A stretch of 64,000 bases of DNA from Nitrospira japonica (GCF_900169565.1 NZ_LT828648.1:2234876-2298875); one strand, 5' to 3'. Positions 6,737 through 37,550 are shown, counted from the stretch's first letter. Notes: generated by a model from the sequence alone, not told the origin. Numbers and translations: made by a program.

Positions 6737-8002
6737 ATGGCGTCGACACGTCCGTTATCCATCGCGCAGCTTGAGCAAGCCTTCCGGGAAAAGTCCCGCG
6801 AAGTCGATGTCTTGCATCGGATTACCGATTCCATCAGCAATACGTTGGACCTTGAAGCGGTTCTCAAACACATCGTCGAAGTCGTGGTTGAAGTCACCAA
6901 GGCCGACGCGTGTCTCTTATATCTGTTGTCCGACAAGGGCGACGAACTCATTCTTCGGGCTTCGAAGAACCCTCATCCGAAGCTGATCGGACGCATCACC
7001 ATCGGCATGGGCGAAGGTATTACCGGTTGGGTCGCGCAGGAGCGCACCAGGGTGGTGATTCCGAGCAATGCCAGCGACGATTCCCGCTTCAAGTTTTTTC
7101 ATAATCTTCCGGAAGATCGGCACCAGGCCTTCGTGTCCGTCCCCATCATGGCCAAGAAGGAAGTGGTCGGGGTCATCAACGTGCAACATCGGCGGCCCAA
7201 ACGGTATCGCCCCGATGAACTGGCATTGCTCTCCACCATCGCCAATCAGGTGGGAGGTGCCATCGAAAATGCGCGTTTGTATGAGCAAATGCGACGCAAA
7301 GCATTGCAGGTCGAAACGCTGTCCCAGGTGTCCGAAACGGTCGCGTCGAATCGGCTCATCGAGGACGTCCTGCAGTTGCTCGTTACCATGACGGCGCAAA
7401 TGATGAACTCGAAAATTTGCTCCATCATGTTGCTCGACGGAGCCACCGGAGATCTGCGCATCGAAGCGACGCAGAGTCTGAGCGAGCTCTACCGGCGCAA
7501 GCCCAATTTGAAGATCGGGCAAAGCATCAGCGGGCGTGCGGTACAAGAACGGCGGCCGATCATCGTGGCCGACGTCATGAAGGAACCGAACTACATGTAT
7601 CCGGACATGGCGAGGAAGGAAGGACTGTGTTCGCTGTTGTGCGTTCCGATGCTCGTGAGGGAAAAGGCGGTCGGTGTCATCAACAGCTATACCTCTGCGC
7701 CGTACTCATTTACGAGCGAGGAGGTCAAGCTGCTGCAGGCGATCGCCAACCAGGCAGCCATCGCAATCGAACATACGACCCTGCTTGAGAAGTCATTTGA
7801 AATGCAGGAAGCATTGGCCGTGCGAAAGCTGCTCGATCGCGCCAAAGGCTACCTGATGCGGTCCAAAAAACTGTCTGAAGAAGAAGCTTTCAGGCTCATT
7901 CAGCGGCAGAGCATGGATCTCAGAAAGTCGATGCGGGAAATTGCCGAAGCCGTGCTATTGGCGGGAGAACTGGATGAGCGGGCGGACAAACAACGAGGAT
8001 GA
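6737..8002 (+). CDS. GAF-GAF-ANTAR RNA-binding antitermination regulator
   Basis: 421 residues. After a short helix there are two GAF domains (about 25-185 and 195-345), which usually bind small ligands. A C-terminal ANTAR domain (about 356-410) shows the family pattern LLDRAKGYLM, then EEEAFRLIQRQSMDLRKSM and REIAEAVL. ANTAR three-helix domains dimerise and bind RNA with two hexaloop hairpins, preventing terminator formation. There is no receiver domain, so activity is probably set by GAF ligands or partner proteins and not by phosphorylation. Its inferred targets are the leaders at 9104-9204, 25432-25522, 33346-33441, 33517-33579 and 37458-37550. The domain call is firm; the targets are inference. 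Confidence 0.88.
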   Translation: MASTRPLSIAQLEQAFREKSREVDVLHRITDSISNTLDLEAVLKHIVEVVVEVTKADACLLYLLSDKGDELILRASKNPHPKLIGRITIGMGEGITGWVAQERTRVVIPSNASDDSRFKFFHNLPEDRHQAFVSVPIMAKKEVVGVINVQHRRPKRYRPDELALLSTIANQVGGAIENARLYEQMRRKALQVETLSQVSETVASNRLIEDVLQLLVTMTAQMMNSKICSIMLLDGATGDLRIEATQSLSELYRRKPNLKIGQSISGRAVQERRPIIVADVMKEPNYMYPDMARKEGLCSLLCVPMLVREKAVGVINSYTSAPYSFTSEEVKLLQAIANQAAIAIEHTTLLEKSFEMQEALAVRKLLDRAKGYLMRSKKLSEEEAFRLIQRQSMDLRKSMREIAEAVLLAGELDERADKQRG

Positions 8003-8036
8003 GTGCGAGCGGTCGTCCATTCGCATCGGTCGTGAG

Positions 8037-8978
8037 CTACGGTGACTTCGGTGTTCCGGAGGGTTTGGGTGGAGCCGGCTGTCTCCGCGTATCTTGATCC
8101 GCCAGTTGACGTTTGATGTCTTCCAGTTCCTTTCGCAAAGCTTCCAATTCTGGATCTTTTTTATTCGTGTCTCCCACCTTGGCAGGTGCGCCTTGGGCGG
8201 ACGCGGGTGCAGGCGCAGCGGGAGGTGGCTGGCGTACGATCTCGCGGCCGGCGTCGAGCGGAAGACCGGCCAGTAATTCGTAATCGATCACCAGCGTCGT
8301 ATCGGTGGACAGAGCGGTTCGATATTTGTCGTCGCGCTTGGCCGATTCCGGGATGAACATCACGGTGTGATTCAGTAGGCCGGTGCGGTCAGGGACGCGG
8401 CGATTGGGCATATTGATGGTATCAGGGCGCTCAACCCGGTATCGATATTGAGTCAAGGTGACGTAGAGCGAGCGGCCGTACGCATAGATGGACCCCGCGG
8501 TGGTTTCCGGCGGAGCAAGACGCAACGGGGGCTCGGAGGAACCGACGGCTGCCCCCACCCGTTGAGAATAGACCGGCGGTCCCTGCTGATTGACCGTGAA
8601 TCCCACCTGCTGGTCGGAAGCGGCGCGGCTCAGTCCGTCTGTGATCAGCGGAGCCAGGTACGCCACGTCTTCTTCAGAAAAAGCCTGTAAGGCATCTGCT
8701 TTGCGGACTCCAATATCCTGCAGAAATCCTTGATCGTCCCGTACGAGTACACCGCGCAACACGCGCGCGACTGTGCCGGCGGGAAGCTTGATGGGATGGG
8801 CGGCCTGAAAGGAGCGATCGGTGATCCGTTCGAGAACGACGGTGCCGCGATCTGACTCCTGTAGCATGAGATCCAGTTCCGAGGACGTGGCGCAGGCGGC
8901 CAGGCTGAGGATGGAAACGACCGCCGCATTACGCAGGAAACTAGAAGGTAACCCCATTCGAAAATCTCGCTCGGGCAT
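8037..8978 (-). CDS. putative lipoprotein with C-terminal coiled coil
   Basis: 313 residues on the minus strand. The N-terminal signal ends in SLAAC, a lipobox, so the mature protein should be membrane-anchored. The middle (about 30-220) is a beta-rich region I do not recognise. The C-terminus is proline/alanine-rich, with a charged coiled coil (ELEALRKELEDIKRQLADQ) and another proline-rich tail. The ATG eight codons in (MGLPSSF) is an equally good start. No operon partner on this strand. Function unknown. Confidence 0.7.
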   Translation of the reverse strand: MPERDFRMGLPSSFLRNAAVVSILSLAACATSSELDLMLQESDRGTVVLERITDRSFQAAHPIKLPAGTVARVLRGVLVRDDQGFLQDIGVRKADALQAFSEEDVAYLAPLITDGLSRAASDQQVGFTVNQQGPPVYSQRVGAAVGSSEPPLRLAPPETTAGSIYAYGRSLYVTLTQYRYRVERPDTINMPNRRVPDRTGLLNHTVMFIPESAKRDDKYRTALSTDTTLVIDYELLAGLPLDAGREIVRQPPPAAPAPASAQGAPAKVGDTNKKDPELEALRKELEDIKRQLADQDTRRQPAPPKPSGTPKSP

Positions 8979-9048
8979 CCGTGCAGTCTAGCACACGACC
9001 ACGGTAGACGATATGGAGGCCTCGATCTCAACCCTTGAAAGTATCCGC

Positions 9049-9078
9049 TTGACAGGTGGGGGCGGCAGCTTTTATAAG
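9049..9078 (+). promoter_or_regulatory. promoter of the porin-urt leader
   Basis: TTGACA at 9049-9054 is followed, after 17 bases, by TTATAA (9072-9077), with TATAAG as the one-base-shifted alternative. Transcription would begin near 9084, just upstream of the first leader hairpin. The -35 reads TTGACAGGT, the same nine bases as at the leader upstream of nadE (25388-25396). Confidence 0.7.
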
Positions 9079-9103
9079 TACGCCCGTCTAACGGCTTCAG
9101 CGG

Positions 9104-9204
9104 CGGACAAGGGAGTCCGAATCTGGACCGCCAAAGACGAGGACATGAGAAAAGGACAATGGCGTCCTTTTGGTCCATCATGTGGGCCGGAAGGGCGCTT
9201 TTTT
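9104..9204 (+). promoter_or_regulatory. ANTAR-type antitermination leader A (porin-urtABCDE)
   Basis: Hairpin P1 is CGGAC (9104-9108) and GTCCG (9115-9119) around the six-base loop AAGGGA. Hairpin P2 is an 8-bp stem (9150-9157 with 9164-9171) around AATGGC. Both loops have A at position 1 and G at position 4, the two bases ANTAR proteins require. The 3' side of P2 is also the 5' side of the terminator at 9162-9198, so the two structures exclude each other. ANTAR binding should favour P2 and allow transcription into the porin and urt genes. The sequence match is direct; regulation is inferred. Confidence 0.82.
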
Positions 9205-9209
9205 ATTTT
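9162..9209 (+). terminator. conditional terminator in leader A
   Basis: Bases 9162-9176 can pair along all 15 positions (with several G-U pairs) with 9184-9198 around a seven-base loop, followed by TTTTTTATTTT. The 5' arm begins inside the P2 loop, so formation of P2 blocks this terminator. It sits 63 bases upstream of the porin ATG. Confidence 0.82.
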
Positions 9210-9271: not shown

Positions 9272-10762
9272 ATGAAGGGCGGAAGAAAACGTCACCATGT
9301 ACTTGGAAGCATTGGCGTCGCGGTAGTGACCCTGGCGCTCTTCAGTGCTGTCGCCTCGGCTGCGGAGGCACAGAGCGCGGGAGAATCAACCGGTGCGGGT
9401 CGCAAGTCTCGTGAGATGCAGAGTCCCCCTGCCTCATCCGAGCCGTCTATGGGAAATGAAGAAGGACAGAGTGCAGGTGAGTCAACCGGCGGCGGTCGTC
9501 TGTCACGTGAAACGCAGACTCCTCCCGCGGTCATCTGCGGAGGGTGCGTGACCCATACTCATGATGCCCAAGCCAAAGGCAGCATCGTTCCATACGGCCG
9601 CATCGAATTGGACGGCATCTACAGCACCCGCAATACCAATCCGCTCGATCCCGGTCAATTCAATGGATACGCCACGGCAGCAGGAAAGAGCAGCAATTCC
9701 TCCTCGACGTTCAATCCGCGCTACAGCGTCTTCGGTCTTCGTGCCGACCGCACGGACGGCGCCAACGTGATCACCGGCGTGGTCGAAACGGATTTTTATT
9801 CGCAGACGGACAACGCGGGAAACATCTCCCCGCGCCTTCGCCTTGCGTTTGCACGGTACTCTCCCAACAACAGCAGGACGAGTGTTACGGCTGGTATGGA
9901 CTGGACGCCGGTCATGGGCCTGCACCCAAATCTTGTCGACTTTTCGATCATGGGTTACAACGGCAATCTCTGGCAGCGTCTCCCGCAGGTCACGGTTCGG
10001 CACCAGTTCAGCGAGCATATCGATGCGCTCGTGACGGTGTTCCGGTTTGAACGAGGGCTGTCGGCGATCCAACCGCAGACGCAGCGGCGTCCGTTCACAG
10101 GCAATGGCGTCGGCGGCGTGCCTCCGGTCTCCTGCAACAATCCGACGGGGAACTTTGCCTGTTCCGAGAACGCCTTCAATGATCCCGTCCAGATGCCGTA
10201 CACGGGAACGAGGTTTGGGTATAACGGAACGGGTAAGCTCCAGGGGATGATGGTGGCGGTGAGTGGTGCCTATCGTTGGTATCGTTCGGCTCCGACGGCC
10301 TTGGTCGGTGGTATTCCCTCGGGTCAAGACATCAACTCATATGTAATCGGCGGGGAATTGGTGGTCCCGATCACCAGGCAGTTGAAGTTTTCCGGAGAAA
10401 TTGCCTACGGTCAGGCACTTGGCGTCGAATTCTTCCGGTTCGGTCAGGATCGCAACCTCGGAACCGGAAAACCGATTCGCACGACGGTGGGATGGGGCGA
10501 AATCGATTACGCGCATGATAAAGATACGACTTTTATTGCGGGCTACGGCTTCGACAATCCTCTCAATTCCGATCTGAAAGGGGATGTGGCTGGTCCGGAC
10601 ACCCAGTACCTTCTGAACCATCGCACCTATGTGACGGCCGTTCGTCACATCTGGAGCGACTTCTATATGTCGTTCGAGTGGAACCATCTGATGACCGAAT
10701 GGTCGACCAATGAACGCTTTGCCGGCGACAACTTCATGTTGTCGACCTGGTACAACTTCTAA
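9272..10762 (+). CDS. outer-membrane porin of the urea uptake operon (FmdC-like)
   Basis: 496 residues from ATG 9272, preceded by GAGGGAG at 9255-9261. A signal peptide (about 1-30, ending VASAAEA) leads into a low-complexity region with a duplicated 21-residue unit beginning QSAGESTG (DNA 9371-9433 and 9467-9529). Next comes a CGGCVTHTHD segment and then a beta-barrel of porin type ending in aromatic YNF. It lies directly upstream of urtABCDE under leader A, so passage of urea or short amides across the outer membrane is likely. The porin class is well supported; the substrate comes from context. Confidence 0.8.
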   Translation: MKGGRKRHHVLGSIGVAVVTLALFSAVASAAEAQSAGESTGAGRKSREMQSPPASSEPSMGNEEGQSAGESTGGGRLSRETQTPPAVICGGCVTHTHDAQAKGSIVPYGRIELDGIYSTRNTNPLDPGQFNGYATAAGKSSNSSSTFNPRYSVFGLRADRTDGANVITGVVETDFYSQTDNAGNISPRLRLAFARYSPNNSRTSVTAGMDWTPVMGLHPNLVDFSIMGYNGNLWQRLPQVTVRHQFSEHIDALVTVFRFERGLSAIQPQTQRRPFTGNGVGGVPPVSCNNPTGNFACSENAFNDPVQMPYTGTRFGYNGTGKLQGMMVAVSGAYRWYRSAPTALVGGIPSGQDINSYVIGGELVVPITRQLKFSGEIAYGQALGVEFFRFGQDRNLGTGKPIRTTVGWGEIDYAHDKDTTFIAGYGFDNPLNSDLKGDVAGPDTQYLLNHRTYVTAVRHIWSDFYMSFEWNHLMTEWSTNERFAGDNFMLSTWYNF

Positions 10763-10833
10763 ACCTGCGTTCCGCCTGACGGCGTTCATCGCCCATGGTC
10801 CGGCGTCACGTTCACGGCGAAAGGAATCTGACG

Positions 10834-12195
10834 ATGGAAAATAAGAAGCAACAGACCGAAATTACATCAACCGAGCCATCCATGGACGGCGGTCCGTCCC
10901 GACGGGATTTTTTGGTGCGAGGCGCCAGGCTCACGGCCGGCGTTGGTGTGGCGGCCCTGCTGGGGAATCTGGGGCAATGGGCGCTCTCTTATGCGGCGGA
11001 CAAGGAGCCGATCAAGATCGGCGTGCTTCATTCTTTGAGCGGAACGATGGCGATCAGCGAGGTGTCGCTCCGTGACGTCGTCCTCATGGCCATCGAAGAA
11101 ATCAATGCAAAAGGTGGCGTGTTGGGACGTCAGGTAAAACCGGTGGTGGTGGATCCGGCTTCCAACTGGGACCTGTTCGCGGAAAAGGCCAAGCAGCTCC
11201 TGCTCCAGGACAAAGTGTCCGCCGTATTCGGATGCTGGACCTCGGTGAGCCGCAAGTCCGTCCTGCCCGTGTTCGAAAAAAACAACGGATTGCTGTTCTA
11301 TCCGGTTCAATACGAGGGAGAAGAGTGCTCCCGGAACGTGTTCTACACTGGGGCGGCGGTGAATCAGCAGGCGGTGCCGGCGGTGGAATATCTGATGAGC
11401 AAGGATGGCGGCAGCTACAAGAAGTTCTATTTGCTGGGGACCGATTACGTGTATCCGCGCACCACGAACAAGATCCTCCGTGCCATGCTCCTGGCAAAGC
11501 ATGTTCCGGAAGCCGGCATCATGGAAGAGTACACCCCGTTTCATCACCAGGACTATCAGACCATCGTCGGCAAGATTAAGAAGTTCGCCGCGGGCGGGGG
11601 CGCGGCGGTGATCAGCACCATCAACGGCGACAGCAACGTCCCCTTCTACAAAGAGTTTGCCAATCAGGGGTTGCGGGCCGAAGATGCGCCGATCATGGCA
11701 TTCAGCGTGGCGGAAGACGAATTGCGCGGGATGGATACGACGGCCCTGGTCGGACACTTGGCGGCCTGGAACTATTATCAGAGCGTCGATACGCCGCAAA
11801 ACAAGCAGTTCGTCTCGAACTTCAAGGCCTATTGCAAGAAGAACAGTCTGCCGGACGGCGACAAGCGGGTGACGGACGATCCGATCGAAGCGGCGTATTT
11901 CGGAGTCTATATGTGGAAGCAGGCGGTCGAGAAGGCCGGCGCCGTCGATGTCGACCAGGTTCGTAAGGCCGTCTACGGCCAGAAGTTTCTCGCGCCGGGC
12001 GGCGAGGTCATGATGGACACCGGCAACCATCATACGCACAAGCCGGTGCTCATCGGGGAGATCTTGAAAGACGGACAGTTCAAGGTCGTCTCCCGCTCAA
12101 AGGGCCTGGTCAAGCCGGAGCCCTGGAGTGAATACACGAATCCGGACAAGGGCTGTGACTGGATCAGTCATCAGGGCACCTACCAGAAAAAGTAG
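10834..12195 (+). CDS. urtA: urea ABC transporter substrate-binding protein UrtA
   Basis: 453 residues from ATG 10834 with AAAGGA upstream. The N-terminus carries a twin-arginine signal (SRRDFLVRG plus a hydrophobic stretch), so it is exported folded. The mature part begins IKIGVLHSLSGTMAIS, the type I periplasmic-binding fold used for urea and short amides. It is the periplasmic receptor for UrtBC and is followed by a stem-loop and urtB. Similarity across the full length is to UrtA and not to the branched-chain amino-acid LivK group; the gene order agrees. Confidence 0.93.
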   Translation: MENKKQQTEITSTEPSMDGGPSRRDFLVRGARLTAGVGVAALLGNLGQWALSYAADKEPIKIGVLHSLSGTMAISEVSLRDVVLMAIEEINAKGGVLGRQVKPVVVDPASNWDLFAEKAKQLLLQDKVSAVFGCWTSVSRKSVLPVFEKNNGLLFYPVQYEGEECSRNVFYTGAAVNQQAVPAVEYLMSKDGGSYKKFYLLGTDYVYPRTTNKILRAMLLAKHVPEAGIMEEYTPFHHQDYQTIVGKIKKFAAGGGAAVISTINGDSNVPFYKEFANQGLRAEDAPIMAFSVAEDELRGMDTTALVGHLAAWNYYQSVDTPQNKQFVSNFKAYCKKNSLPDGDKRVTDDPIEAAYFGVYMWKQAVEKAGAVDVDQVRKAVYGQKFLAPGGEVMMDTGNHHTHKPVLIGEILKDGQFKVVSRSKGLVKPEPWSEYTNPDKGCDWISHQGTYQKK

Positions 12196-12209
12196 CCGGT
12201 GAGAATACG

Positions 12210-12242
12210 GCGGGTGACGCGGACGAATGTGGCGTCACCCGC
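12210..12242 (+). other. stem-loop between urtA and urtB
   Basis: An 11-bp perfect stem (12210-12220 with 12232-12242) encloses an 11-base loop, 14 bases after the urtA stop. No T-run follows. Such hairpins behind binding-protein genes commonly stabilise the upstream mRNA and raise the ratio of binding protein to permease. That role is inferred here. Confidence 0.6.
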
Positions 12243-13826
12243 TTGTCATGTTCGGGAGTTCTCTGGATTGTGATACGATCGGGCCGGTTCTCGTCACTCT
12301 GCGCAGTCCTCCTCTTGTTGTGTTTGTGTTTTGTTCGAGATCGCGCCGCGGCGACCGAACTCCCGCCGGCTTCCGCTCCCGACTCACCGCTCGAACGGGC
12401 ATTGAATCAGCTCACCAGCGACGATGAGACCGTCCGTGAGTCGGCGATTCGCACGGTCATCGAACAGGGAGACGTCAGTCTGGTCCCTCGTCTCGACGCG
12501 ATCCGCGCCAATGCGGATCGCTCGGTCCGGCAAGCCATCAAGCCCGTCATGGACCTGCTGAAGAACCGCGCCAATCTCGAGAGTCCCGACCAAGACGTCC
12601 GCCGGTCCGCCGCCACGGATCTCGGGCTGTCCCGTCGCGGGATCGCGATCCCCTGGCTGGAGCGGGCTGCGAACAAGGAAACACACAAATGGGTCCGCTA
12701 TACGATGGAGGAGTCGGGCGCCCTGCTTCGCCTGGCCGTGGACGATCAGACGACGAAACTCGCGGCCATCGACACATTGGCCGCGCTGTCGAGTCAGAAC
12801 GCCGTCCCGGGACTCAAGGAACTGGTCGAGGCTGGAGGGACGGTTGACGCGAGCGGTCCCCAGCAAGAATTGTCGCGGGCGGCTGCCGCGGCCATCGAAC
12901 GGATCGAAACCTGGGCCGCCTGGTCCAACGCCATTGAAACGATCTTCCGCGGGATCAGCCTGAGTTCCATTCTCCTCATCATGTCCGTCGGCCTGGCCAT
13001 CGTGTTCGGCCTGATGGGCGTGATCAACATGGCCCACGGGGAACTGATGATGGTGGGGGCCTACGGAACTTTCCTGACCCAGGAATTCTTCAAGGCGTTT
13101 CTGTCTCCCGCGTTCTTTGACTACTATTTCGTTTTGGCCATGCCGGTCGCATTTCTCTTGGCTGCGGCCTGTGGATTACTGCTGGAAGCGACGGTCATTC
13201 GGTTCCTCTACGGCCGGCCGCTGGAGACCATGCTGGCGACGTGGGGAGTCAGCCTGATTCTCATGCAAGCGGCACGGGTATATTTCGGAGATCTGACGGC
13301 GGTGGTGGCGCCGGCATGGCTCAGCGGGGGCCAGCAGGTGATGGTCGGGGTCTTTCTCCCCAACAACCGTTTGTTCGTGATCGGGTTATCGGTGATCTGC
13401 GTCATGGTCATCTATGCGGTGTTGTTCCGGTCCGCGCTTGGATTGCGCGTCCGCGCCGTGACGCAGAATCGCAACATGAGCGCGTGTCTTGGCATTCCGA
13501 CCCGGAAAGTCGACGCGTATACGTTCGCCTTCGGATCCGGGCTGGCAGGGATCGCCGGCTGGGCGTTGACCTTGATCGGGAACGTGGAGCCAGGACTGGG
13601 CCAGAACTACATCGTCGACTCCTTCATGGTCGTGGTGACCGGCGGTGTGGGCAAGCTCGCCGGGACGATCGTGGCGTCGCTGGGCATCGGCGGGCTCAAC
13701 AAGCTGCTCGAGCCTGGTCTGGGGGCCGTGTACGGCAAAGTCTGTATTCTCGTCCTGGTCATTCTGTTCCTACAATGGCGACCCTCGGGCCTGTTCGCCG
13801 TGAAAGGGCGCCACGCCGACTCCTAG
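12243..13826 (+). CDS. urtB: urea ABC transporter permease UrtB
   Basis: 527 residues if read from the TTG at 12243; a GTG at 12270 lies outside the preceding hairpin and is a credible alternative. UrtB has a signal-like N-terminus, a periplasmic helical-repeat region (about 45-215), then the LivH-like permease domain with about eight membrane helices (from about 230). The long N-terminal extension is normal for UrtB and absent from LivH. It forms the inner-membrane channel with UrtC. Confidence 0.9.
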   Translation: MSCSGVLWIVIRSGRFSSLCAVLLLLCLCFVRDRAAATELPPASAPDSPLERALNQLTSDDETVRESAIRTVIEQGDVSLVPRLDAIRANADRSVRQAIKPVMDLLKNRANLESPDQDVRRSAATDLGLSRRGIAIPWLERAANKETHKWVRYTMEESGALLRLAVDDQTTKLAAIDTLAALSSQNAVPGLKELVEAGGTVDASGPQQELSRAAAAAIERIETWAAWSNAIETIFRGISLSSILLIMSVGLAIVFGLMGVINMAHGELMMVGAYGTFLTQEFFKAFLSPAFFDYYFVLAMPVAFLLAAACGLLLEATVIRFLYGRPLETMLATWGVSLILMQAARVYFGDLTAVVAPAWLSGGQQVMVGVFLPNNRLFVIGLSVICVMVIYAVLFRSALGLRVRAVTQNRNMSACLGIPTRKVDAYTFAFGSGLAGIAGWALTLIGNVEPGLGQNYIVDSFMVVVTGGVGKLAGTIVASLGIGGLNKLLEPGLGAVYGKVCILVLVILFLQWRPSGLFAVKGRHADS

Positions 13827-13847
13827 CCGGCTGACGCATCATCTCCC

Positions 13848-14987
13848 ATGGCCGACGCGCGCGACATCCAACCTTCCGCTCCACGCGAAGCGAGCCTGGC
13901 GTTCTGGGTCTCGGGGTTCGTATTGCTGGTGGTAATGCCGTTGTTGAACGTCCTGCCGGCCGAAGATTCCTGGTTGCATCTGTCCGACTTCTCGCTGAAT
14001 CGGTTCGGAAAGTTTCTTGCGTTTGCCATTCTGGCGCTCGGGCTCGATCTGATCTGGGGATACACCGGCATCCTCAGTCTGGGCCAGGGGGTGTTCTTCG
14101 GACTCGGAGCGTACTGCATGGGCATGCATCTCATGCTCACGATCGGCAAGGAAAGCGTCTACGGCAGCGACCTGCCTGACTTCATGGTCTGGAACCAAGT
14201 CAAGGAACTTCCACTGTTTTGGCAACCGTTCCACAGCTTTCCCCTCGCGGTGCTCGGGGCCGTCCTGGTTCCCACCTTCTTTGCCCTGGTGTTCGGATTT
14301 CTGGCGTTTCGCAGCCGGATCAAAGGCGTGTACTTTGCCATCATCACCCAGGCGCTGGCCTTGGTCGCCTGGCTCGTCTTCAATCGAAACGAGACGAATC
14401 TCGGCGGCACCAACGGCCTCACCGATTTCAAACAGCTGCTCGGATTCCGCCTCTCCGAACCCGGGACGCAGCGGGCGTTGTACGTGATCACGGTGCTCTG
14501 TCTCGGAGGCGCCTATCTGCTGTGCCAGTGGATCATCCGGTCACGAGCCGGAAGAGTGCTCATCGCCGTCCGCGACAGCGAACAGCGCGTTGCGTTTTCT
14601 GGTTATGCCCCGGCGAACTATAAGCTGTTCGTGTTCGTCGTCGCCGCGGCATTGGCCGGACTGGCGGGGCTGCTCTACGTGCCCCAGGTCGGCATCATCA
14701 CGCCCGCGCAGATCGGCGTCCTGCCTTCGCTGGAGATGGTCATTTGGGTGGCGGTCGGAGGGCGTGGGACGCTGGCGGGCGCCGTGCTCGGCGCGGTCAG
14801 CGTGAACCTGGGCCGCAGCGTGCTGACGAACTATTTTCCCGAGCTGTGGCCGTTTATGCTGGGGGGATTGTTCGTCACGGTGGTGTTGCTGTTTCCTGAC
14901 GGCCTGGTCGGCATCCTCCACAAACTGAAGGACCGGGTTGCTTCGCGAAAGACCGCTCGGCTGGCCGAAGGAGAGGCACAGATATGA
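13848..14987 (+). CDS. urtC: urea ABC transporter permease UrtC
   Basis: 379 residues with about nine to ten membrane helices, the LivM-like second permease. The conserved stretch LGLDLIWGYTGILSLGQGVF is visible near residues 63-82. It starts 21 bases after urtB and overlaps urtD by four bases (ATGA). Confidence 0.92.
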   Translation: MADARDIQPSAPREASLAFWVSGFVLLVVMPLLNVLPAEDSWLHLSDFSLNRFGKFLAFAILALGLDLIWGYTGILSLGQGVFFGLGAYCMGMHLMLTIGKESVYGSDLPDFMVWNQVKELPLFWQPFHSFPLAVLGAVLVPTFFALVFGFLAFRSRIKGVYFAIITQALALVAWLVFNRNETNLGGTNGLTDFKQLLGFRLSEPGTQRALYVITVLCLGGAYLLCQWIIRSRAGRVLIAVRDSEQRVAFSGYAPANYKLFVFVVAAALAGLAGLLYVPQVGIITPAQIGVLPSLEMVIWVAVGGRGTLAGAVLGAVSVNLGRSVLTNYFPELWPFMLGGLFVTVVLLFPDGLVGILHKLKDRVASRKTARLAEGEAQI

Positions 14988-27382: not shown

Positions 27383-29147
<1,765 letters not shown>

Positions 29148-29151
29148 ACAC

Positions 29152-31830
29152 ATGGATCAGGACGCATCGAGGACATTGCTGTCGGAAGTCCAGCCGTCCG
29201 CGCTGGGCGCCCTGCTCGAGGAACACCGCCGTGCCGTGGCGCAACGGGTCATGGGCGAGGCGTCGGGCGCCGAGACCCTTGCCGCCATGACCGAATTCGT
29301 CGACGGCCTCATCGTCGGCCGGTATCGCGACGCCGTGAAGCGCGGCGGCGACGAGTCGGCCGCGGTCGGCTTCCGCCAATGCTGCGTCGTGGCGCTGGGC
29401 GGCTACGGCCGGCGCGAATTGGCTCCCCATTCGGACATCGATCTGATGTTCCTCTTCAAGCCCGGTTCGGACAAGGCCGTCGAGTCACTGGTCCGGGCGG
29501 TGCTCCATCCACTCTGGGACTGCGGATTTCAGGTCGGCCACAGCGTGAGGACCATCGCCGACAGCATCGAACTGGCCGAAGCGGACTCGACCGTCAAGAC
29601 GTCCATGATGGAGGCGCGATTTCTGGCCGGCAGTGCGGATCTCTTTCAAGATTTTCACCGGCGGTATCTGCGCAAGGTGGTGGCGAAGAATACCGACGTC
29701 TATCTGGATCAGAAGCTCGAAGAACGCCGCCGCGAGTACGAAAAATTCGGTGAGACCGTCTACTTGCTCGAACCGAACGTCAAGAAGAGCAAGGGAGGGC
29801 TTCGGGACCTGCACCTGCTCCAATGGGCGGGCATGGCCCGGTATCAAGCCCCCACGATCAGGGAGCTGTCCGACCGGGGCATTCTGTCGAGGCCGGATAT
29901 GCTGGCCCTCGCCGAGGCGCGGGATTTCCTCTGGCGGGTCAGGGCTCTGTTGCACGTCCATGCGGGAACGGCCCAGGAGATCCTGACGTTCGACGAACAG
30001 GTCTGGCTTGCCGGCCACTTCGGTTATCAGGATCAGCCGCACCTTCTGGCGGTCGAACAGTTCATGCAGCAGTACTACCAGCATACGATGGGGTTGCATG
30101 AACGCTGTACGCGGTTTGTGGAACGATGCCGGAGCGTGCCGTTCTGGCACCGTGTTGCGCGGCTGTTGCCGGCTCCCCGGGTGGAGGACGCATTCGTGAT
30201 TCGCGCGGGCGTGTTGACGGTGGCCGAGGAACATCGCGCGAAGGTCCTGGAGGATCCGGCTTTGCTGCTGCGCCTGTTCGATCTCGCCCGCGAGCGGCAT
30301 GTGACGATCGAGCCCTCCCTGCTGGAGGACATTCACCGGCACATCGGCCACGTGGAAGCCGGTGTGTATCGTGCCCCGGAAGTCAGCCGGATTTTTCTGA
30401 GGATTTTGGCCGGACCGGGGACGACCAAGACACTGGAGGCCATGCATCGCGCCCATCTCCTCGAAAAGCTGGTGCCGGCGATGGGCACGGTCCGCGGGCT
30501 CATGCAATTCAACCAGTATCACAAGTACACGGTCGATGAGCACAGCCTGCTGGCGGTCGGCCGGGCCGAGGCCCTGGCCGGAGAAGCGGGCTTGCTGGGC
30601 GAGATCTATCGGAGCATCAAGCGGAAGGACATTTTGCATCTTGCGGTCCTGATGCACGACTTGGGTAAGGGGCAGGAAGAGGATCATAGCGACGTGGGAC
30701 GGCGCCTGGCCGAAGAGGTCGGCGTCCGTTTGGGATTGGACGAGCAGGACCAACGGACGTTGTCTTTTCTGGTCCATCGGCATCTGCTGATGGCCCACAC
30801 GGCGTTCAGGCGGGACCCCAACGATGAAAAGGTCGTGCTGCCCTTCGCCCGGGAGGTCGGAACTCCCGAGGTCTTGAAGAAACTGGCCGCCTTGACCGCG
30901 GCGGATATTGCGGCGGTGGGACCGGGAGTGCTGACCAAGTGGAAAGAGTCGCTGTTGATCGAGCTGTACGAACGGACGATGCCGGAGTTGTCCGGTGACC
31001 GGGACGCCCTCTGTTCTCCCGGAAGGTTGGCGCAGGTGGCGGAGGAAGTCGTCGGCCTTCCGCTCCTGGCCCAACGGACCGACGTCGACCGTGCCTGGGT
31101 CGAGGCGCAGTTGAAGCTGTTTCCCGAGCGGTACGTCCATGGTACGGTGCCGGCCCGTATTGCCGCCCACCTGTCGGCGGTCAAACGTCTTGTGTCCGGC
31201 GAAGTGGTCATGGAGTCCGGCTTCAACCCTGAATTGGGGATTTGCGAATATACGGTTATCACGCACAATGATTTGACGCCTGGAATTTTTTCCAAGATCG
31301 CGGGAGTGATGGCCGGCAGCGGGCTGCAGATCCTGGACGCCCAGATTCTCACCAGGGAAGACGGGATCGTCGTCGACACGTTTCAGGTGACGGATCCGGA
31401 CTATCAGGGAGAGCCGCCCGCCGAGCGGCGGCTCACGGTCGGAGAGCGAATCGCGGCAGTCCTGAAGGGATGGGAGCACGTGGACGACGTGGTGCGACGG
31501 GGCGCGCGCCTGAAGCTCACCCGTCCGCTCCCGAAAGCCCGGGAGGCGACCGAAGTGCGGCTCGACAACGAAACATCGGACCGATGCACCATTATCGACG
31601 TCTTTGCCGACGATCGACTGGGTCTGCTCCATGTGATGACCAATGCGATTTTTCAGCTCGGTCTGTCGATTCACGCGGCGCGCATCTCCACCAGGTTGGA
31701 TCAGGCCGCCGACGTGTTCTACGTCACGGACCTCTCGGGCAAGAAGTTGTCCGATCCGGTCCAGCTGGAGCGGGTGCGGGTGGGCGTCGAACAGGCCATC
31801 GAAAAGTTTCTCGCCGTCAAGGCGGCATAG
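29152..31830 (+). CDS. glnD: bifunctional PII uridylyltransferase / uridylyl-removing enzyme
   Basis: 892 residues, full length. Nucleotidyltransferase motif GGYGRRELAPHSDIDLMFLF (about residues 83-102), HD hydrolase domain with VLMHDLGKGQEEDHS, and two C-terminal ACT domains (beginning near YTVITHNDLTPGIFSKI and CTIIDVFADDRLGLLHVM) that bind glutamine. It uridylylates PII when glutamine is low and reverses this when high. Starts four bases after glnB. Confidence 0.96.
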   Translation: MDQDASRTLLSEVQPSALGALLEEHRRAVAQRVMGEASGAETLAAMTEFVDGLIVGRYRDAVKRGGDESAAVGFRQCCVVALGGYGRRELAPHSDIDLMFLFKPGSDKAVESLVRAVLHPLWDCGFQVGHSVRTIADSIELAEADSTVKTSMMEARFLAGSADLFQDFHRRYLRKVVAKNTDVYLDQKLEERRREYEKFGETVYLLEPNVKKSKGGLRDLHLLQWAGMARYQAPTIRELSDRGILSRPDMLALAEARDFLWRVRALLHVHAGTAQEILTFDEQVWLAGHFGYQDQPHLLAVEQFMQQYYQHTMGLHERCTRFVERCRSVPFWHRVARLLPAPRVEDAFVIRAGVLTVAEEHRAKVLEDPALLLRLFDLARERHVTIEPSLLEDIHRHIGHVEAGVYRAPEVSRIFLRILAGPGTTKTLEAMHRAHLLEKLVPAMGTVRGLMQFNQYHKYTVDEHSLLAVGRAEALAGEAGLLGEIYRSIKRKDILHLAVLMHDLGKGQEEDHSDVGRRLAEEVGVRLGLDEQDQRTLSFLVHRHLLMAHTAFRRDPNDEKVVLPFAREVGTPEVLKKLAALTAADIAAVGPGVLTKWKESLLIELYERTMPELSGDRDALCSPGRLAQVAEEVVGLPLLAQRTDVDRAWVEAQLKLFPERYVHGTVPARIAAHLSAVKRLVSGEVVMESGFNPELGICEYTVITHNDLTPGIFSKIAGVMAGSGLQILDAQILTREDGIVVDTFQVTDPDYQGEPPAERRLTVGERIAAVLKGWEHVDDVVRRGARLKLTRPLPKAREATEVRLDNETSDRCTIIDVFADDRLGLLHVMTNAIFQLGLSIHAARISTRLDQAADVFYVTDLSGKKLSDPVQLERVRVGVEQAIEKFLAVKAA

Positions 31831-31874
31831 CGCGAGTCGTCGGGCAACGTCAGAATGTTTGAAAGGAGGAGGGA

Positions 31875-33284
31875 ATGAACGTTCGCGAGGTGTTGGAGTT
31901 TGCCAAAAAAAACAAGGTCCAGGTGGTGGACCTCAAATTTGTCGACTTGATCGGCACGTGGCAGCATTTCACGATTCCGGCCAGCGAGTTGACGGAAGAC
32001 CTGTTCAAAGACGGTTCAGGGCTGGACGGGTCGTCCATCCGCGGATGGAGAGCCATCAACAACAGCGACATGCTGGTGGTGCCGGATCCCTCGACCGCAT
32101 GCATGGATCCGTTCACCGCGGTGCCGACCTTGAGCCTCACCGGCAACGTCATCGACCCCATCTCGCGGGAAAATTACGAACGCGATCCCCGCTACATTGC
32201 CCAGAAGGCCGAGAAGTATCTGCAGAGCACGAAGATCGGGGACATCTCCTTCTGGGGACCCGAGGCGGAGTTCTTCATCTTCGATCATGCGCGCTATGAC
32301 CAGACCGGACACAGCGGCTATTACTTCATCGACTCCGAAGAGGGTGTCTGGAACATGGGGCAGGATGGCGTCAACCTGGGCGCCAAGATCCGCCACAAGG
32401 AGGGGTATTTCCCCGTTGCGCCGACCGATACCCAGCAGGACATCCGGACCGAGATGATCATGGAGATGGAGAAGGTGGGCATCGCGGTGGAAAAACACCA
32501 CCACGAAGTCGCGACCGCCGGTCAGGCCGAAATCGACGTGCGGTTCGATTCGCTGCTCAAGATGGCCGACAAGATGATGATGTACAAGTACATCGTCAAG
32601 AACGTGGCGCGCCGTCACGGCAAGACGGTGACCTTCATGCCCAAGCCGATTTTCGGAGACAACGGCTCCGGCATGCACACGCATCAAAGCATCTGGAAGG
32701 ACGGCAAGCCGTTGTTCGCCGGCAAGGATTACGCCGGGGTGTCGCAAATGTGTCTGTATTACATCGGCGGCATCCTGAAGCACGCTCCAGCCTTGGCCGC
32801 CATTACGAATCCGACCACCAATTCGTACAAGCGTCTGACGCCGGGATTCGAAGCGCCGGTGCTGCTGGCCTATTCCAGCCGCAACCGTTCCGCGGGCATT
32901 CGTATCCCGATGTATTCGCCGAGCCCGAAGGCCAAGCGGATCGAAGTCCGGTTCCCGGATCCCGGCTGCAATCCCTATCTGGCCTTCGCCGCCATGCTTA
33001 TGGCCGGGCTGGACGGCATCGAGAACAAGATCAATCCCGGCGAACCGGCCGAAAAGGATCTCTACGACCTCGAGGCGAAGGAAGCGGCGAAAATCCGCAC
33101 CATGCCCGGAAGCCTGGACGAAGCGCTGAACAATCTGGAGAAAGACCATAAGTTCATGCTCAAGGGCGGCGTGTTCACCGAGGATGTGATCGAGGCGTGG
33201 ATCAACTACAAGCGGACCAAAGAGGTGGATCCGATGCGGTTGCGGCCGCATCCGTATGAGTTCTTCCTGTACTATGACGTGTAA
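31875..33284 (+). CDS. glnA: glutamine synthetase type I
   Basis: 469 residues with GGAGGAGGG upstream. Conserved GS blocks: DGSSIRGW, the EAEFFIFD metal site, the [11 protein letters not shown] region, NRSAGIRIP and RFPDP. The adenylylation-loop tyrosine is present in KDLYDLEAK, fitting the GlnE-type enzymes encoded at 59701-63767. Last gene of the nadE-amtB-glnBDA run; the stretch after it contains a promoter and two leader RNAs. Confidence 0.97.
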
Positions 33285-33345: not shown

Positions 33346-33441
33346 CGATCGTAAACAAGGGCGTTTGCGGTCGCTGACATAAGGCACACGGACAAAGGCG
33401 TCCGTCATTCTGCAAAGGATGGCGGGCGCCTTTTAGTTTTT
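33346..33441 (+). promoter_or_regulatory. ANTAR-type antitermination leader C1
   Basis: P1 is an 11-bp stem (33346-33356 with 33363-33373, two G-U) around AAGGGC. P2 is ACGGAC/GTCCGT (33388-33393 with 33400-33405) around AAAGGC. Both loops have A1 and G4. The terminator at 33394-33433 uses the P2 loop and 3' arm as its 5' arm. This is the longest P1 of the set. Confidence 0.83.
33394..33441 (+). terminator. conditional terminator in leader C1
   Basis: Bases 33394-33410 pair at all 17 positions (three G-U) with 33417-33433 around TGCAAA, with TTTTAGTTTTT overlapping the 3' arm. It could also terminate glnA transcripts. Confidence 0.83.
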
Positions 33442-33516
33442 CGGCCGGCCGAGGAGTCTTCCAGGAAGGTCTCCTCCGCGGCTTCGGTGACTGCATCAAG
33501 ACAGCATTAGACGGGT

Positions 33517-33579
33517 CGGCGGAGACTCGTCGCTCTTGGACAAAGGCGTCCTTCCCCGATGAGGGGGAGGACGCCTTTT
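33517..33579 (+). promoter_or_regulatory. second ANTAR-like element C2 in tandem
   Basis: A P2-type hairpin GGAC (33538-33541) and GTCC (33548-33551) encloses AAAGGC (A1, G4). The terminator 33542-33578 pairs at 16 of 16 positions around a five-base loop and is followed by TTTTGTGTTT. The only hexaloop hairpin just upstream (CGGCG/CGTCG, 33517-33532) has loop GAGACT, which lacks A1 and G4. This may be a degenerate or terminator-only copy. The stretch 33442-33516 holds an unrelated hairpin (33451-33476). Confidence 0.65.
33542..33579 (+). terminator. second terminator upstream of the nrtA-like gene
   Basis: Stem 33542-33557 with 33563-33578, one G-U pair only, loop GATGA, then TTTTGTGTTT. It is the most stable terminator of the series, 46 bases before the ATG at 33625. 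Confidence 0.8.
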
Positions 33580-33624
33580 GTGTTTGAAGCGCTTGTACCC
33601 AACGAATTGGAAAAGGAGCAGACC

Positions 33625-34938
33625 ATGAACGAACCAACGCCACCGCGAGTGCTCAGCCCGGCGCCGGACGCGCTGTCGCCCGACGAATATTTCGATCGCA
33701 CGCTCGAGCGGTCCGTCGCCGCCGCGGTGTTGAATGCGGCCGATCCCACGCGCCGTCAAGTCCTTGCGGGGTTGGGGGCGGCAGCCCTGACGGCGCTGAT
33801 CGCCGAGCTGTTTCCCCTGGGGAGCCTCAAGGCATTCGCCGCGGATCCGGTCGGCAAGCCTGAAAAAACCGACGTGAGCATCGGCTTCATTCCGATCACC
33901 TGCGGCACGCCGATCATCATGGCGGAGCCGTTGGGGTTCTACAAGAAGCACGGCCTGAACGCGTCGGTGAAGCGGGCCGCCGGCTGGGCGATGATCCGCG
34001 ATTGGACGGTGAACGAGGAGGTCGACGCGGCGCACATGCTCACGCCGATGCCGCTGGCCATCACGCTGGGGGCCGGCTCGGTGCCGACACCCATCTACAT
34101 GCCCGCCATCGAAAACATCAACGGGCAAGCGATCACACTCCACGTGAAGCACAAGGGCGTGAAGTCCGCCGCCGAGATGAAGGGTTTCCGGTTTTGCGTG
34201 CCGTTCGACTATTCGATGCACAATTACCTGCTGAGGTACTACCTGGCGGAAGGCGGCATCCATCCCGACAAGGACGTGCAAATCCGGGTCGTCCCGCCGC
34301 CCGAAATGGTGGCCAACCTCAAGGCCGGCAACGTCGACGGCTATCTGGGACCCGATCCGTTCAATCAACGGGCGGTCTACGAGAACGTCGGCTTCCTCTA
34401 CAAGCTGTCACGCGAGATTTGGGACCGGCATCCCTGTTGCGCCTTCACGGTGAAGAAAGACTATGCGACGGCGCATCCCAATACGTTTCTTGCGATGTGG
34501 CGGGCGATCATCGACGCCACGCACTATGCGTCCGATCCCGCGCATCGGAAGGAGATCGCGGCGGCGATCGCTCCGACCAATTACCTGAATCAACCCGTCA
34601 CGGTGCTGGAGCAAGTTCTGACCGGCACGTACGCGGACGGGCTGGGAAGCATCAAGAAGGATCCGCATCGCATCGATTTCGATCCCTATCCCTGGCATTC
34701 GATGGCGATCTGGATTCTTACGCAGATGAAACGCTGGGGACACGTGAAGGGGGACGTCAACTACAAGGCGGTTGCCGAGCAGGTCTATCGCGCGGCGGAC
34801 TGCGACCGGATCGCCAGGGAACTCGGGTATCCGGCCCACCAAGCCACCTCGATGACTCACGTCATCATGGGGAAAGAGTTCGATCCGAACAAGGCCGAGG
34901 CATACGTCAAGGGATTCACCATTCACAGCATGGCATAA
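33625..34938 (+). CDS. nitrate/cyanate ABC transporter substrate-binding protein (NrtA/CynA-like)
   Basis: 437 residues from ATG 33625 with AAGGAG at 33613-33618. A twin-arginine signal (TRRQVLAG plus a hydrophobic stretch ending FAADP, residues about 45-75) is unusually far from the N-terminus. The mature protein is of the NrtA/CmpA/SsuA group, starting DVSIGFIPITCGTPIIMAEP. The cynS gene three genes downstream makes cyanate the more likely substrate, with nitrate possible; sequence alone does not settle this. Confidence 0.85.
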   Translation: MNEPTPPRVLSPAPDALSPDEYFDRTLERSVAAAVLNAADPTRRQVLAGLGAAALTALIAELFPLGSLKAFAADPVGKPEKTDVSIGFIPITCGTPIIMAEPLGFYKKHGLNASVKRAAGWAMIRDWTVNEEVDAAHMLTPMPLAITLGAGSVPTPIYMPAIENINGQAITLHVKHKGVKSAAEMKGFRFCVPFDYSMHNYLLRYYLAEGGIHPDKDVQIRVVPPPEMVANLKAGNVDGYLGPDPFNQRAVYENVGFLYKLSREIWDRHPCCAFTVKKDYATAHPNTFLAMWRAIIDATHYASDPAHRKEIAAAIAPTNYLNQPVTVLEQVLTGTYADGLGSIKKDPHRIDFDPYPWHSMAIWILTQMKRWGHVKGDVNYKAVAEQVYRAADCDRIARELGYPAHQATSMTHVIMGKEFDPNKAEAYVKGFTIHSMA

Positions 34939-34947
34939 GGAGCCGCT

Positions 34948-36000
34948 ATGGAATCCACGAACGACGCAATGGTGTCAGAAACGGCTTCTCCGGCAGGCCG
35001 GACCGGGGAGCCCCCCCGGATCATGGTCCGGTCGCTGACGCACCGTGTGGGGGAGTCGTTGAAAAGAGCCGGCATGTCGGCCGTCCGCAGCGTCCACGTC
35101 AAAGGCGGTACGTCGGGAGGCCGGGCGGCGGGCAACCCGTGGTTCATCTCGGTCTTCGTGCTGGTGATGTTTCTCCTGGCTTGGCACTTCTTCACGCTGC
35201 GCCCGACGTTCGACCCTATCGGATTGACGGAGGAGCAGCTCCAACTCATGGAGTTCAACGGGGACATCGTACGGACGCCGGAAGGTGCCTATGTGTGGAA
35301 TCCTGAAAAAGAGAAAGTGAAGGGGATTCCCGGACCCTTGGCGGTCGTGGAAAAGGCCCGTACGGAGCTGGCCGAAGCCTTCGTGAAAAAAGGAACGAAC
35401 GATCACGGCATCGGCTACCTGGTGCTGTATACGGTATCGCGCTTCGGGGCGGGATTTCTGGCGGCATCCGTGATCGCGATCCTGTTGGGCGTCGTCCTCG
35501 GGCTGAACAAGGTCCTCTACCGCGCGGCGAATCCGTTCATCCAAATTCTGAAGCCGATCTCGCCGCTGGCCTGGATGCCGCTGCTGCTCTACACGGTCAA
35601 GGATCCAAAGTGGACGGCGATGCTGGTCGTGTTCATGGCGGCCGTGTGGCCCACGCTCGCGACGACCGCGTTCGGCGTCAGTTCGTTGAAAAAGGAATAC
35701 CTGCACGTCGCGTCGATCGTCCAGCTCTCGTGGTTCAAGCGCTTGTTCAAGGTGATTTTGCCGGGCGCCGCGCCCACCATCGTCAACGGCCTGCGCATCT
35801 CGTTCGGAAGCGCGCTGGTGGCCGTGGTGCCCGCCGAAATGCTGCTGGGAGAGCTCGGCGTCGGGTACCTGAGCTGGATCGAGTGGAACAATCTCGACAT
35901 TGCCGGCGTCATCTTCGCCATTCTCGTGGTCGGCGTCGTCGGCGTCGTGCTGGACTCCGGGTTCAATAAATTGGCGGGCCTCGTCACGTATCAGGAGTAA
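34948..36000 (+). CDS. nitrate/cyanate ABC transporter permease (NrtB/CynB-like)
   Basis: 350 residues. One N-terminal membrane helix (about 68-88) precedes the transport domain with five or six helices in the second half, where the coupling loop lies near FGVSSLKKEYLHVASI. The N-terminal extension of about 65 charged residues is longer than in most NrtB proteins. It starts nine bases after the binding protein and is followed by the ATPase after three bases. Confidence 0.87.
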   Translation: MESTNDAMVSETASPAGRTGEPPRIMVRSLTHRVGESLKRAGMSAVRSVHVKGGTSGGRAAGNPWFISVFVLVMFLLAWHFFTLRPTFDPIGLTEEQLQLMEFNGDIVRTPEGAYVWNPEKEKVKGIPGPLAVVEKARTELAEAFVKKGTNDHGIGYLVLYTVSRFGAGFLAASVIAILLGVVLGLNKVLYRAANPFIQILKPISPLAWMPLLLYTVKDPKWTAMLVVFMAAVWPTLATTAFGVSSLKKEYLHVASIVQLSWFKRLFKVILPGAAPTIVNGLRISFGSALVAVVPAEMLLGELGVGYLSWIEWNNLDIAGVIFAILVVGVVGVVLDSGFNKLAGLVTYQE

Positions 36001-36003
36001 CCC

Positions 36004-36870
36004 ATGGCTTTCTTACAAATCGATCACGTCAGCAAGTTTTTCCCCAATCCGTCGGGCGCGGGGCAAGTCTGCATCTTCAGGGATGCGACGATCAAGATCG
36101 ACAAGGGCGAGTTCGTCACGGTGATCGGGCACTCGGGCTGCGGCAAAAGCACGCTGCTCAACATCATCGCCGGGCTGGAAACGCCGTCCGAAGGCGGCGT
36201 CATTCTCAACGGGAGAGAGGCCTCCGGGCCCGGTCTGGACCGCATGGTCGTGTTTCAGAACTTTGCGCTCATGCCATGGATGACCGTGTTCGAGAATATC
36301 GCCCTCGCGGTGCGGTCGGCCTATCCCGAGTGGACGGCCGCGCAAGTGTCGGCGCATGTCACGAGATATATCGCCCTGGTCGGGCTCAAGGGCGCCGAGA
36401 ACAAGCGGCCGGCCGCGCTCTCGGGCGGTATGAAGCAACGGGTTGGACTGGCGCGCGCGTTCTCGATCGAACCGAAAGTGCTGCTGTTGGACGAGCCGTT
36501 CGCTCAAATCGACGCGTTGACGCGCGGCGTGATTCAAGAGGAATTGATTCAAATGTGGAACACCTCGAGGAACACCGTCTTCATGGTCACGCATGACGTG
36601 GACGAGGCCATTCTCTTGTCGGACCGGATTCTCCTGATGACGAACGGGCCGGAGGCGCGGATCGCGGAGATGGTGCACGTGTCGATCGCGCGGCCGCGGT
36701 CGAGGGAAACCGTCATCGACCATCCGCACTATTACAAGATCAGGAACCACATCATCCATTTTCTGGTTCGTCATGCGAAGCACGGAGGTCACTACGGGAC
36801 GGGGCACCAGGCGGAGTCTGGAGATCCCGTCGTCGTGAACTTCGATGAGGCAACAGTTTCGGCCGGTTGA
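36004..36870 (+). CDS. nitrate/cyanate ABC transporter ATP-binding protein (NrtD/CynD-like)
   Basis: 288 residues. Walker A GHSGCGKSTLLN, signature LSGGMKQRVGLARAF, Walker B LLLDEPFAQID and the switch histidine in MVTHDVDEAI. Only one ATPase gene is present and it has no fused binding domain, so the transporter resembles cyanobacterial CynABD and not NrtABCD. Confidence 0.9.
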   Translation: MAFLQIDHVSKFFPNPSGAGQVCIFRDATIKIDKGEFVTVIGHSGCGKSTLLNIIAGLETPSEGGVILNGREASGPGLDRMVVFQNFALMPWMTVFENIALAVRSAYPEWTAAQVSAHVTRYIALVGLKGAENKRPAALSGGMKQRVGLARAFSIEPKVLLLDEPFAQIDALTRGVIQEELIQMWNTSRNTVFMVTHDVDEAILLSDRILLMTNGPEARIAEMVHVSIARPRSRETVIDHPHYYKIRNHIIHFLVRHAKHGGHYGTGHQAESGDPVVVNFDEATVSAG

Positions 36871-36922
36871 ATCGGTGGAGCAAACAGCGGGTCATCACTT
36901 CACTCAAGGAGGGGGCGCCAAC

Positions 36923-37363
36923 ATGGACAAGGAATCCGTACGGAAGGCGATTAAGGCCAGGCGACTGGCCAAGAAACTCACGATTGCCGATATTGCGAAG
37001 GACATCGGAAGGAACCCCACGTTCGTCGCGGCGGTGCTGCAGGGGAATCACAAGCTGCCGGCCGATGAGGGGAAAAAAGTCGGAGAGTTGTTGGGGCTCG
37101 ATGCGGATCTGACCGCCTCGTTGAGCAAATTCCCCGTGCGCACGGATTTCCCGAATTCGAGCGATCCGTTCAAATACCGCCTGATGGAAATCATCGGCGT
37201 CTACGGCGATTCGATGCGGGAGCAGGCCAACGAGATGTTCGGCGACGGCATCATGAGCGCGATCGATTTCACGCTCGACATGGAAAAGGTGACCGGCAGT
37301 CAAGGGGAGGCACGCTGCAAGATCACCTTGAACGGCAAGTGGCTGGAGTACAAAACGTTTTAA
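36923..37363 (+). CDS. cynS: cyanate hydratase (cyanase)
   Basis: 146 residues from ATG 36923 with AAGGAGGGGG upstream. Cyanase converts cyanate and bicarbonate to ammonia and CO2. The catalytic residues are all in place: Arg and Glu in FKYRLMEIIGVYGDS and Ser in GDGIMSAIDF. The N-terminal helix-turn-helix-like domain is structural. Paired with the transporter upstream, it yields assimilable ammonia. Confidence 0.96.
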   Translation: MDKESVRKAIKARRLAKKLTIADIAKDIGRNPTFVAAVLQGNHKLPADEGKKVGELLGLDADLTASLSKFPVRTDFPNSSDPFKYRLMEIIGVYGDSMREQANEMFGDGIMSAIDFTLDMEKVTGSQGEARCKITLNGKWLEYKTF

Positions 37364-37457
37364 GGAGTTGGCCGCGGGGTTTCATCTAAGGAGACGAACC
37401 GGATGTCGAATTGAACAGTACGTCAGCACACGGCGTCGGCTGCCGGCGAACCGGGAC

Positions 37458-37550
37458 GAAGACAACGCAGTCTTCCGTTCCCCCTCCGCAGCGGACAACA
37501 TGCGGACAAAGGCGTCCGTCGTTCTCTTCAGTGGAATGGCGGCGCCTTGT
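37458..37550 (+). promoter_or_regulatory. ANTAR-type antitermination leader D (amtB2 to octaheme cytochrome)
   Basis: P1 is GAAGAC (37458-37463) and GTCTTC (37470-37475) around AACGCA. P2 is GCGGAC/GTCCGT (37502-37507 with 37514-37519, one G-U) around AAAGGC. Both loops have A1 and G4. No convincing promoter is seen between the cynS stop (37363) and P1, so this may be a read-through control point inside a longer transcript. It precedes amtB2 by about 80 bases. Confidence 0.8.
37509..37550 (+). terminator. conditional terminator in leader D, imperfect
   Basis: Bases 37509-37525 pair with 37532-37548, with one bulged base and G-U pairs, followed by GTGTGTTTGTGG, a poor T-run. Termination here is expected to be leakier than in the other leaders. 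Confidence 0.6.

Follow-up and report, generated by a model that had tools for sequence, protein, structure and literature searches.

The window analysed here, a stretch of 64,000 nucleotides from Nitrospira japonica (NZ_LT828648.1:2234876-2298875), carries a gene for a GAF-GAF-ANTAR protein and four nitrogen-acquisition operons. Each operon is preceded by a leader with two hairpins, termed P1 and P2, whose loops are six bases long, and the 3' arm of P2 is shared with a predicted intrinsic terminator. From the sequence, these features very probably constitute a one-component ANTAR antitermination regulon, in which a single protein would control the urea, ammonium/glutamine, cyanate and nitrite-assimilation operons. 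Their positions, counted from the first letter of the window, are as follows.

6737..8002, +, GAF-GAF-ANTAR protein, proposed antiterminator (Pfam: GAF twice, ANTAR)
9104..9119, +, leader 1, P1 hairpin, loop AAGGGA at 9109-9114
9150..9171, +, leader 1, P2 hairpin, loop AATGGC at 9158-9163 (66.4 bits with model R1, see below)
9161..9205, +, leader 1, intrinsic terminator, uses the P2 3' arm
9272..16451, +, target 1: porin-like gene (no family match), urtA, urtB, urtC, urtD, urtE (NCBIfam)
25432..25449, +, leader 2, P1 hairpin, loop AACGGA from 25438
25471..25486, +, leader 2, P2 hairpin, loop AATGAC from 25476
25479..25522, +, leader 2, intrinsic terminator with a long U-tract
25536..33284, +, target 2: nadE, amtB, glnB (PII), glnD, glnA (NCBIfam)
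33350..33369, +, leader 3, P1 hairpin, loop AAGGGC from 33357
33388..33405, +, leader 3, P2 hairpin, loop AAAGGC from 33394
33394..33441, +, leader 3, intrinsic terminator
33510..33531, +, tandem element 5, P1 hairpin, GACGGGTC-GGCGGA-GACTCGTC, variant with G at loop position 1 (G1) and G at position 4 (G4), found by folding
33538..33551, +, tandem element 5, P2 hairpin, loop AAAGGC
33542..33585, +, tandem element 5, intrinsic terminator
33625..37363, +, target 3: substrate-binding protein of the NMT1/nitrate-cyanate type, nrtB-like and nrtC-like genes, cynS
37458..37475, +, leader 4, P1 hairpin, loop AACGCA from 37464
37503..37518, +, leader 4, P2 hairpin, loop AAAGGC from 37508 (top R1 match)
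37510..37556, +, leader 4, imperfect terminator; one base is bulged and the U-tract is weak
37634..43432, +, target 4: amt, small gene, amt, cytochrome b, multihaem cytochrome of the octahaem nitrite reductase type

Leaders, terminators and target operons

The four leaders and eight hexaloops described in the initial annotation were all found at the positions it gave, with A at loop position 1 (A1), G4, and AC before and GT after the loop in every case. Its further statement, that the second hairpin shares its 3' arm with a terminator, holds for leaders 1-3, where a strong terminator has its 5' arm starting within the P2 loop or 3' arm; the structure at leader 4 is imperfect with a poor U-tract, and a generic terminator scan detected the P2 hairpin alone at that site. 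The fifth element, reported earlier at 33538-33579, was correct with respect to P2 and the terminator and incomplete in that its P1 at 33510-33531, which ends six bases 5' of P2 in the fold, had been overlooked. A consensus promoter scan under a strict rule gave no match at the leaders, although TTGACA-18-TATAAG is readable by eye at 9049-9078. The single motif GACAANGNNGTC occurred 75 times genome-wide compared to 74 times for the reversed control; with no enrichment of this kind, lone hairpins are meaningless as a genome-wide marker. Within the genome, motif pairs no more than 60 nucleotides apart were confined to the window; a further 20 motif copies examined elsewhere all lacked terminator overlap.

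Two of the target operons were refined relative to the initial annotation. The urea-uptake operon does contain urtABCDE, and its first gene (9272-10762) encodes an uncharacterised porin-like protein of 496 amino acids without a Pfam or NCBIfam match; this gene is kept 5' of the urt genes, and its product is a candidate urea porin. The cluster described as amt-bc was resolved into amt-amt-cytochrome b-octahaem nitrite reductase, a make-up that points to assimilatory nitrite reduction as the function of target 4; the role of the octahaem nitrite reductase was assigned from PMC6606698 and PMC6311188. The genome also encodes a Yut-type urea channel, which has been described as unique to N. japonica NJ1 among the reported Nitrospira genomes (PMC5767232). 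An Rfam match to the 5' ureB small RNA (73.7 bits, 22822-23117, +) lies antisense within ureC and is probably merely conserved urease coding sequence.

Conservation and covariation of the element

A covariance model built from the four window leaders only (R1) returned, in the source genome at E ≤ 10, those four leaders and no others. Six other genomes of the genus contained two to six elements each, and the matches in the genus preceded the porin-urt operon, nadE, the cyanate/nitrate transporter that follows glnA, and the amt gene that follows cynS. When a later model (R2) was run over the family, the element was present in 107 of 147 genomes. Across the phylum it was restricted to the order of Nitrospira, in families f1 and f2; five matches obtained by extending the model beyond Nitrospirales (E 0.0015-0.005) correspond approximately to the chance expectation and were not counted. 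The search of Nitrospirota genomes that the initial annotation had proposed was therefore positive: the leaders are conserved, covary and lie 5' of the same nitrogen genes in other Nitrospira.

The covariation and loop statistics were calculated on an alignment of 90 distinct sequences (A5). The covariation score was 0.346 versus 0.143 for shuffled alignments and no more than 0.121 for any slid register, and 127 stem-pair cells were altered on both sides compared to 45.7 in the shuffles, the alignments being fitted to the structure and the slid and shuffled controls correcting for this fitting only partly. The two consecutive small hairpins were conserved in 91 elements. The P1 stem covaried strongly, whereas the P2 stem was almost invariant and is thus barely informative on its own. 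G4 was present in 90/90 sequences in both hairpins, as was the closing C-G pair, and A1 was present in 87/90 (P1) and 89/90 (P2). Of 83 distinct elements, 94% had an above-threshold terminator that uses the 3' arm of P2; after mononucleotide shuffling of the downstream bases the figure was 2%.

Tandem elements were common, with 41 distinct pairs, many of them close kin. P1 of the second unit was recognised in 26 of the 41; among these, the loop started with G in 17 and kept G4 in 23, while 34 of 35 P1 loops in the first unit had A1. The G-starting P1 loop with G4 in downstream tandem units forms a variant loop class beside the normal A1 loops.

According to blastp, 57 of the 83 elements preceded nadE, the urt porin, the substrate-binding protein, cynS, amt or a BBP2 porin. 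Another 17 preceded a formate/nitrite transporter, as counted by hand from the unmatched list, with one representative tested for this assignment (PF01226, 220 bits). The remaining elements were located 5' of porin-like or small lipoprotein genes, with one orphan. The small lipoprotein genes with ANTAR leaders, which lack a family assignment, occur in some relatives, with the leaders at L041 387-441, L076 285-342, L090 5091-5150 and L081 7208-7267. In Nitrospira moscoviensis the elements were found before nadE-amt-glnB-glnD-glnA, before the substrate-binding protein-nrtBC-cynS operon (in tandem) and before amt-amt-cytochrome b; there was no dual-hexaloop leader before urtA, which directly follows the ANTAR gene (L181 11236-11653). 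In Candidatus Nitrospira defluvii they lie before nadE and, as a tandem, after glnA. In N. moscoviensis grown on nitrite as the sole nitrogen source, transcription of urt and ure was moderate and that of the region's remaining genes, one amtB excepted, was strong (PMC6606698). This pattern matches the presence of leaders, a single condition constituting an agreement and not a test.

The GAF-GAF-ANTAR protein

The initial annotation had assigned a GAF-GAF-ANTAR protein to 6737-8002, and Pfam confirmed two GAF domains and an ANTAR domain (PF03861, 69.3 bits versus a cut-off of 27.3). Neither the nitrate-sensing NIT domain nor a receiver domain was matched in Pfam. In a whole-genome search it was the sole ANTAR protein of the complete genome of 4,084,817 bases. 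The AlphaFold model shows, in order, a GAF domain, a long helix (coil), a second GAF domain, another long helix (coil) and the ANTAR domain, and the last is almost unchanged across 29 homologues. The crystal structure of EutV (PMC8934654) shows eleven residues in contact with RNA; in the alignment, six are identical in the Nitrospira protein (R142, K143, K149, E160, M172 and R175) and two are conservatively changed (K147R, Y164F). No member of the GAF-ANTAR architecture had been characterised as of 2020 (PMC7496416), and the leaders supply it with predicted RNA targets.

The best curated matches of the first GAF domain (GAF1) were PtsP (135.5 bits) and NifA (103.5 bits), compared to 25.5 bits for nitrate-binding NreA. 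GAF1 also matched PDB entries 3ci6 and 3trc, both by sequence and by fold. The fold search otherwise returned generic tandem-GAF matches, with the PtsP GAF domain as the top single-domain match for GAF1. PtsP senses the glutamine/2-oxoglutarate ratio and the NifA GAF domain binds 2-oxoglutarate (PMC5024086). Given the closeness of GAF1 to these domains, the likeliest signal is the cellular nitrogen status (2-oxoglutarate/glutamine), perceived through a PtsP/NifA-type GAF1, and this is the least certain step of the proposed scheme.

Co-occurrence and joint loss

The co-occurrence of leaders with a GAF-GAF-ANTAR gene was borne out across the 147 family genomes: both were present in 97, the gene only in 2, the element only in 10 (several of these genomes being incomplete) and neither in 38. 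Nearly all genomes with the gene have exactly one copy, and loss of the gene is accompanied by loss of the leaders. In genus g5, nadE is present in 30/30 genomes; it has an element no more than 1.5 kb away in 9/9 genomes with the ANTAR gene and in 0/21 without it. On the NadE tree the g5 genomes lacking the gene fall into two groups, which indicates about two losses and not 21.

The genome basal in the larger of these groups (G086) preserves a fossil of recent loss. An ANTAR pseudogene, comprising the first ~60 codons and a stop, occupies the interval from aroB to nadE; behind the urease genes sits an orphan leader (ANTAR fragment/orphan leader at L097 7107-7172 and L110 1184-1345). Five other genomes without the gene were examined; in these, aroB is directly followed by nadE-glnB-glnA and the leader is gone. 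The g5 genomes without the ANTAR gene mostly bear amoA, G086 included, in contrast to 0/9 of those that have it. The large clade without the gene is mostly ammonia-oxidising, of the clade A complete ammonia oxidiser (comammox) type. The amoA-bearing genomes of g9, a genus with members recorded as clade B comammox, retain both gene and element. Clade A comammox have Rh-type in place of Amt ammonium transporters, and nitrite assimilation was absent from the comammox genomes then known (PMC6311188), both of which fit the loss of a nitrogen-scarcity regulon.

Discussion

The proposal that one protein co-regulates the nitrogen operons is supported by the single ANTAR gene and by the conservation, covariation, co-occurrence and co-loss described above, all of it sequence evidence. 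We infer that the protein binds the predicted leaders and causes read-through. Transcription of each leader would start at a promoter just upstream. By default, the 3' arm of P2 would pair downstream to form the intrinsic terminator, and little mRNA would extend into the operon. Under nitrogen scarcity, the GAF-GAF-ANTAR protein, as a dimer, would bind the hexaloop of P1 and then that of P2 in the nascent RNA; the bound protein would keep P2 folded and the terminator blocked, and polymerase would read into all the operons together.

Several observations weigh against this scheme. The linkers between P1 and P2 (15-33 nucleotides, median 26, in A5) are at or beyond the published range: eut linkers measure 5-12 nucleotides, 14 nucleotides already weakened induction (PMC3369931), and lengthening the eutP linker by 20 nucleotides abolished antitermination in vitro (PMC3369931, PMC8934654), while linkers of 2-25 nucleotides have been accepted for actinobacterial ANTAR targets. 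In addition, the terminator of leader 4 is weak, three of the eleven EutV contacts are changed in the alignment (R168Q, N173D and R177S), the signal is deduced from domain similarity, and the genome counts overstate independence, the tree showing only about two losses.

A different signal within the same antitermination regulon, nitrate/nitrite as for NasR, is the alternative to which we would still give some, if limited, weight. NasR is itself a one-component ANTAR protein sensing nitrate/nitrite, a GAF domain is able to bind nitrate (NreA), and the targets include nitrite assimilation (the octahaem nitrite reductase, and the formate/nitrite transporter FNT/NirC in relatives) and a nitrate/cyanate ATP-binding cassette transporter. 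However, most targets are ammonium, urea and glutamine genes, such a signal would be ill-suited to a cell always surrounded by nitrite/nitrate, and the GAF1 scores favour PtsP and NifA over NreA by a wide interval. It is improbable that the ANTAR protein binds the leaders constitutively, or acts mainly on translation or RNA stability: some actinobacterial ANTAR targets do overlap ribosome sites (PMC8164766), but terminator overlap is near-universal here and the leaders stop 5' of the start codon.

A metabolite-binding riboswitch next to an unrelated ANTAR gene would account for a conserved leader structure with a terminator before metabolically related operons, but we regard it as highly improbable, as conservation is limited to two small hairpins whose hexaloops have the form known from ANTAR targets, and they co-occur with the ANTAR gene. 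The only Rfam match above the gathering score in the window was the antisense ureB match, with sub-threshold P11 matches near leader 3; a known Rfam family for the leaders was accordingly rejected. There is scarcely any chance that the elements simply end transcription of the upstream genes as ordinary intrinsic terminators, with hexaloops by coincidence. Leaders 3 and 4 do directly follow glnA and cynS, positions where intrinsic terminators are common, but leader 1 sits in a divergent intergenic region, G4 is invariant while the stems covary, the P1 hairpin is conserved, and the 20 lone motifs examined elsewhere lack terminator overlap. Conservation before operons that have moved, together with the disappearance of the elements along with the ANTAR gene, largely refutes this explanation.

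The antitermination of nitrogen genes by ANTAR proteins is already known. Ramesh 2012 established the mechanism and, across diverse bacteria, found ANTAR elements upstream of PII, ammonium, urea, nitrate and glutamine genes (PMC3369931). Multi-operon regulons with several attenuators per genome were predicted there for Desulfotomaculum acetoxidans, among others; eut, nas and ami leaders served as the seeds of that search, and the main text names no Nitrospira. The eut leaders of Enterococcus faecalis (PMC3369931, PMC8934654) share with the present ones the dual hexaloops with A1 and G4, the placement of P2 over an intrinsic terminator and the control, proposed here for Nitrospira, of several leaders by one ANTAR protein. 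In contrast, EutV is a phosphorylated response regulator, the eut linkers are shorter and the eut genes degrade ethanolamine. NasR of Klebsiella oxytoca and its nasF leader (PMC7496416) resemble the proposed Nitrospira system in that a one-component ANTAR protein antiterminates a nitrogen-assimilation operon, with a motif from SELEX (systematic evolution of ligands by exponential enrichment) that has the C-G closing pair, A1 and G4, but NasR senses nitrate/nitrite with a NIT domain and serves a single operon, whereas two GAF domains and several operons are involved here. PtsP (enzyme I-Ntr) and NifA contain the closest curated relatives of GAF1, although these proteins act as a phosphotransferase or a sigma-54 activator and not through an RNA-binding domain. 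What appears to be new is the occurrence in Nitrospira with variant features. A partial full-text literature search, with Table S2 of Ramesh outside its scope, found no report of ANTAR or antitermination control in Nitrospira. No paper on the control of nitrogen acquisition in Nitrospira was found either, and the accessible parts of the published work on the conserved cluster name no dedicated regulator.

Nitrospira are the dominant nitrite oxidisers, and the proposed regulon gives them one candidate regulator of nitrogen acquisition. Its RNA element can be searched for with a single covariance model, and target lists are available for N. moscoviensis and Ca. N. defluvii. We tentatively suggest, at somewhat less than even confidence, that the protein represents a new one-component type: a PtsP/NifA-type GAF antiterminator that may respond to 2-oxoglutarate/glutamine as the master regulator of nitrogen scarcity in canonical and clade B comammox Nitrospira, working through dual hexaloops with long linkers and tandem attenuators with a G1 second unit, and that may have been dropped when clade A comammox took ammonia as fuel. 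The joint loss of gene and leaders in clade A-type genomes, and their retention in clade B-type genomes, ties the regulator to the use of ammonia as a nutrient versus a fuel.

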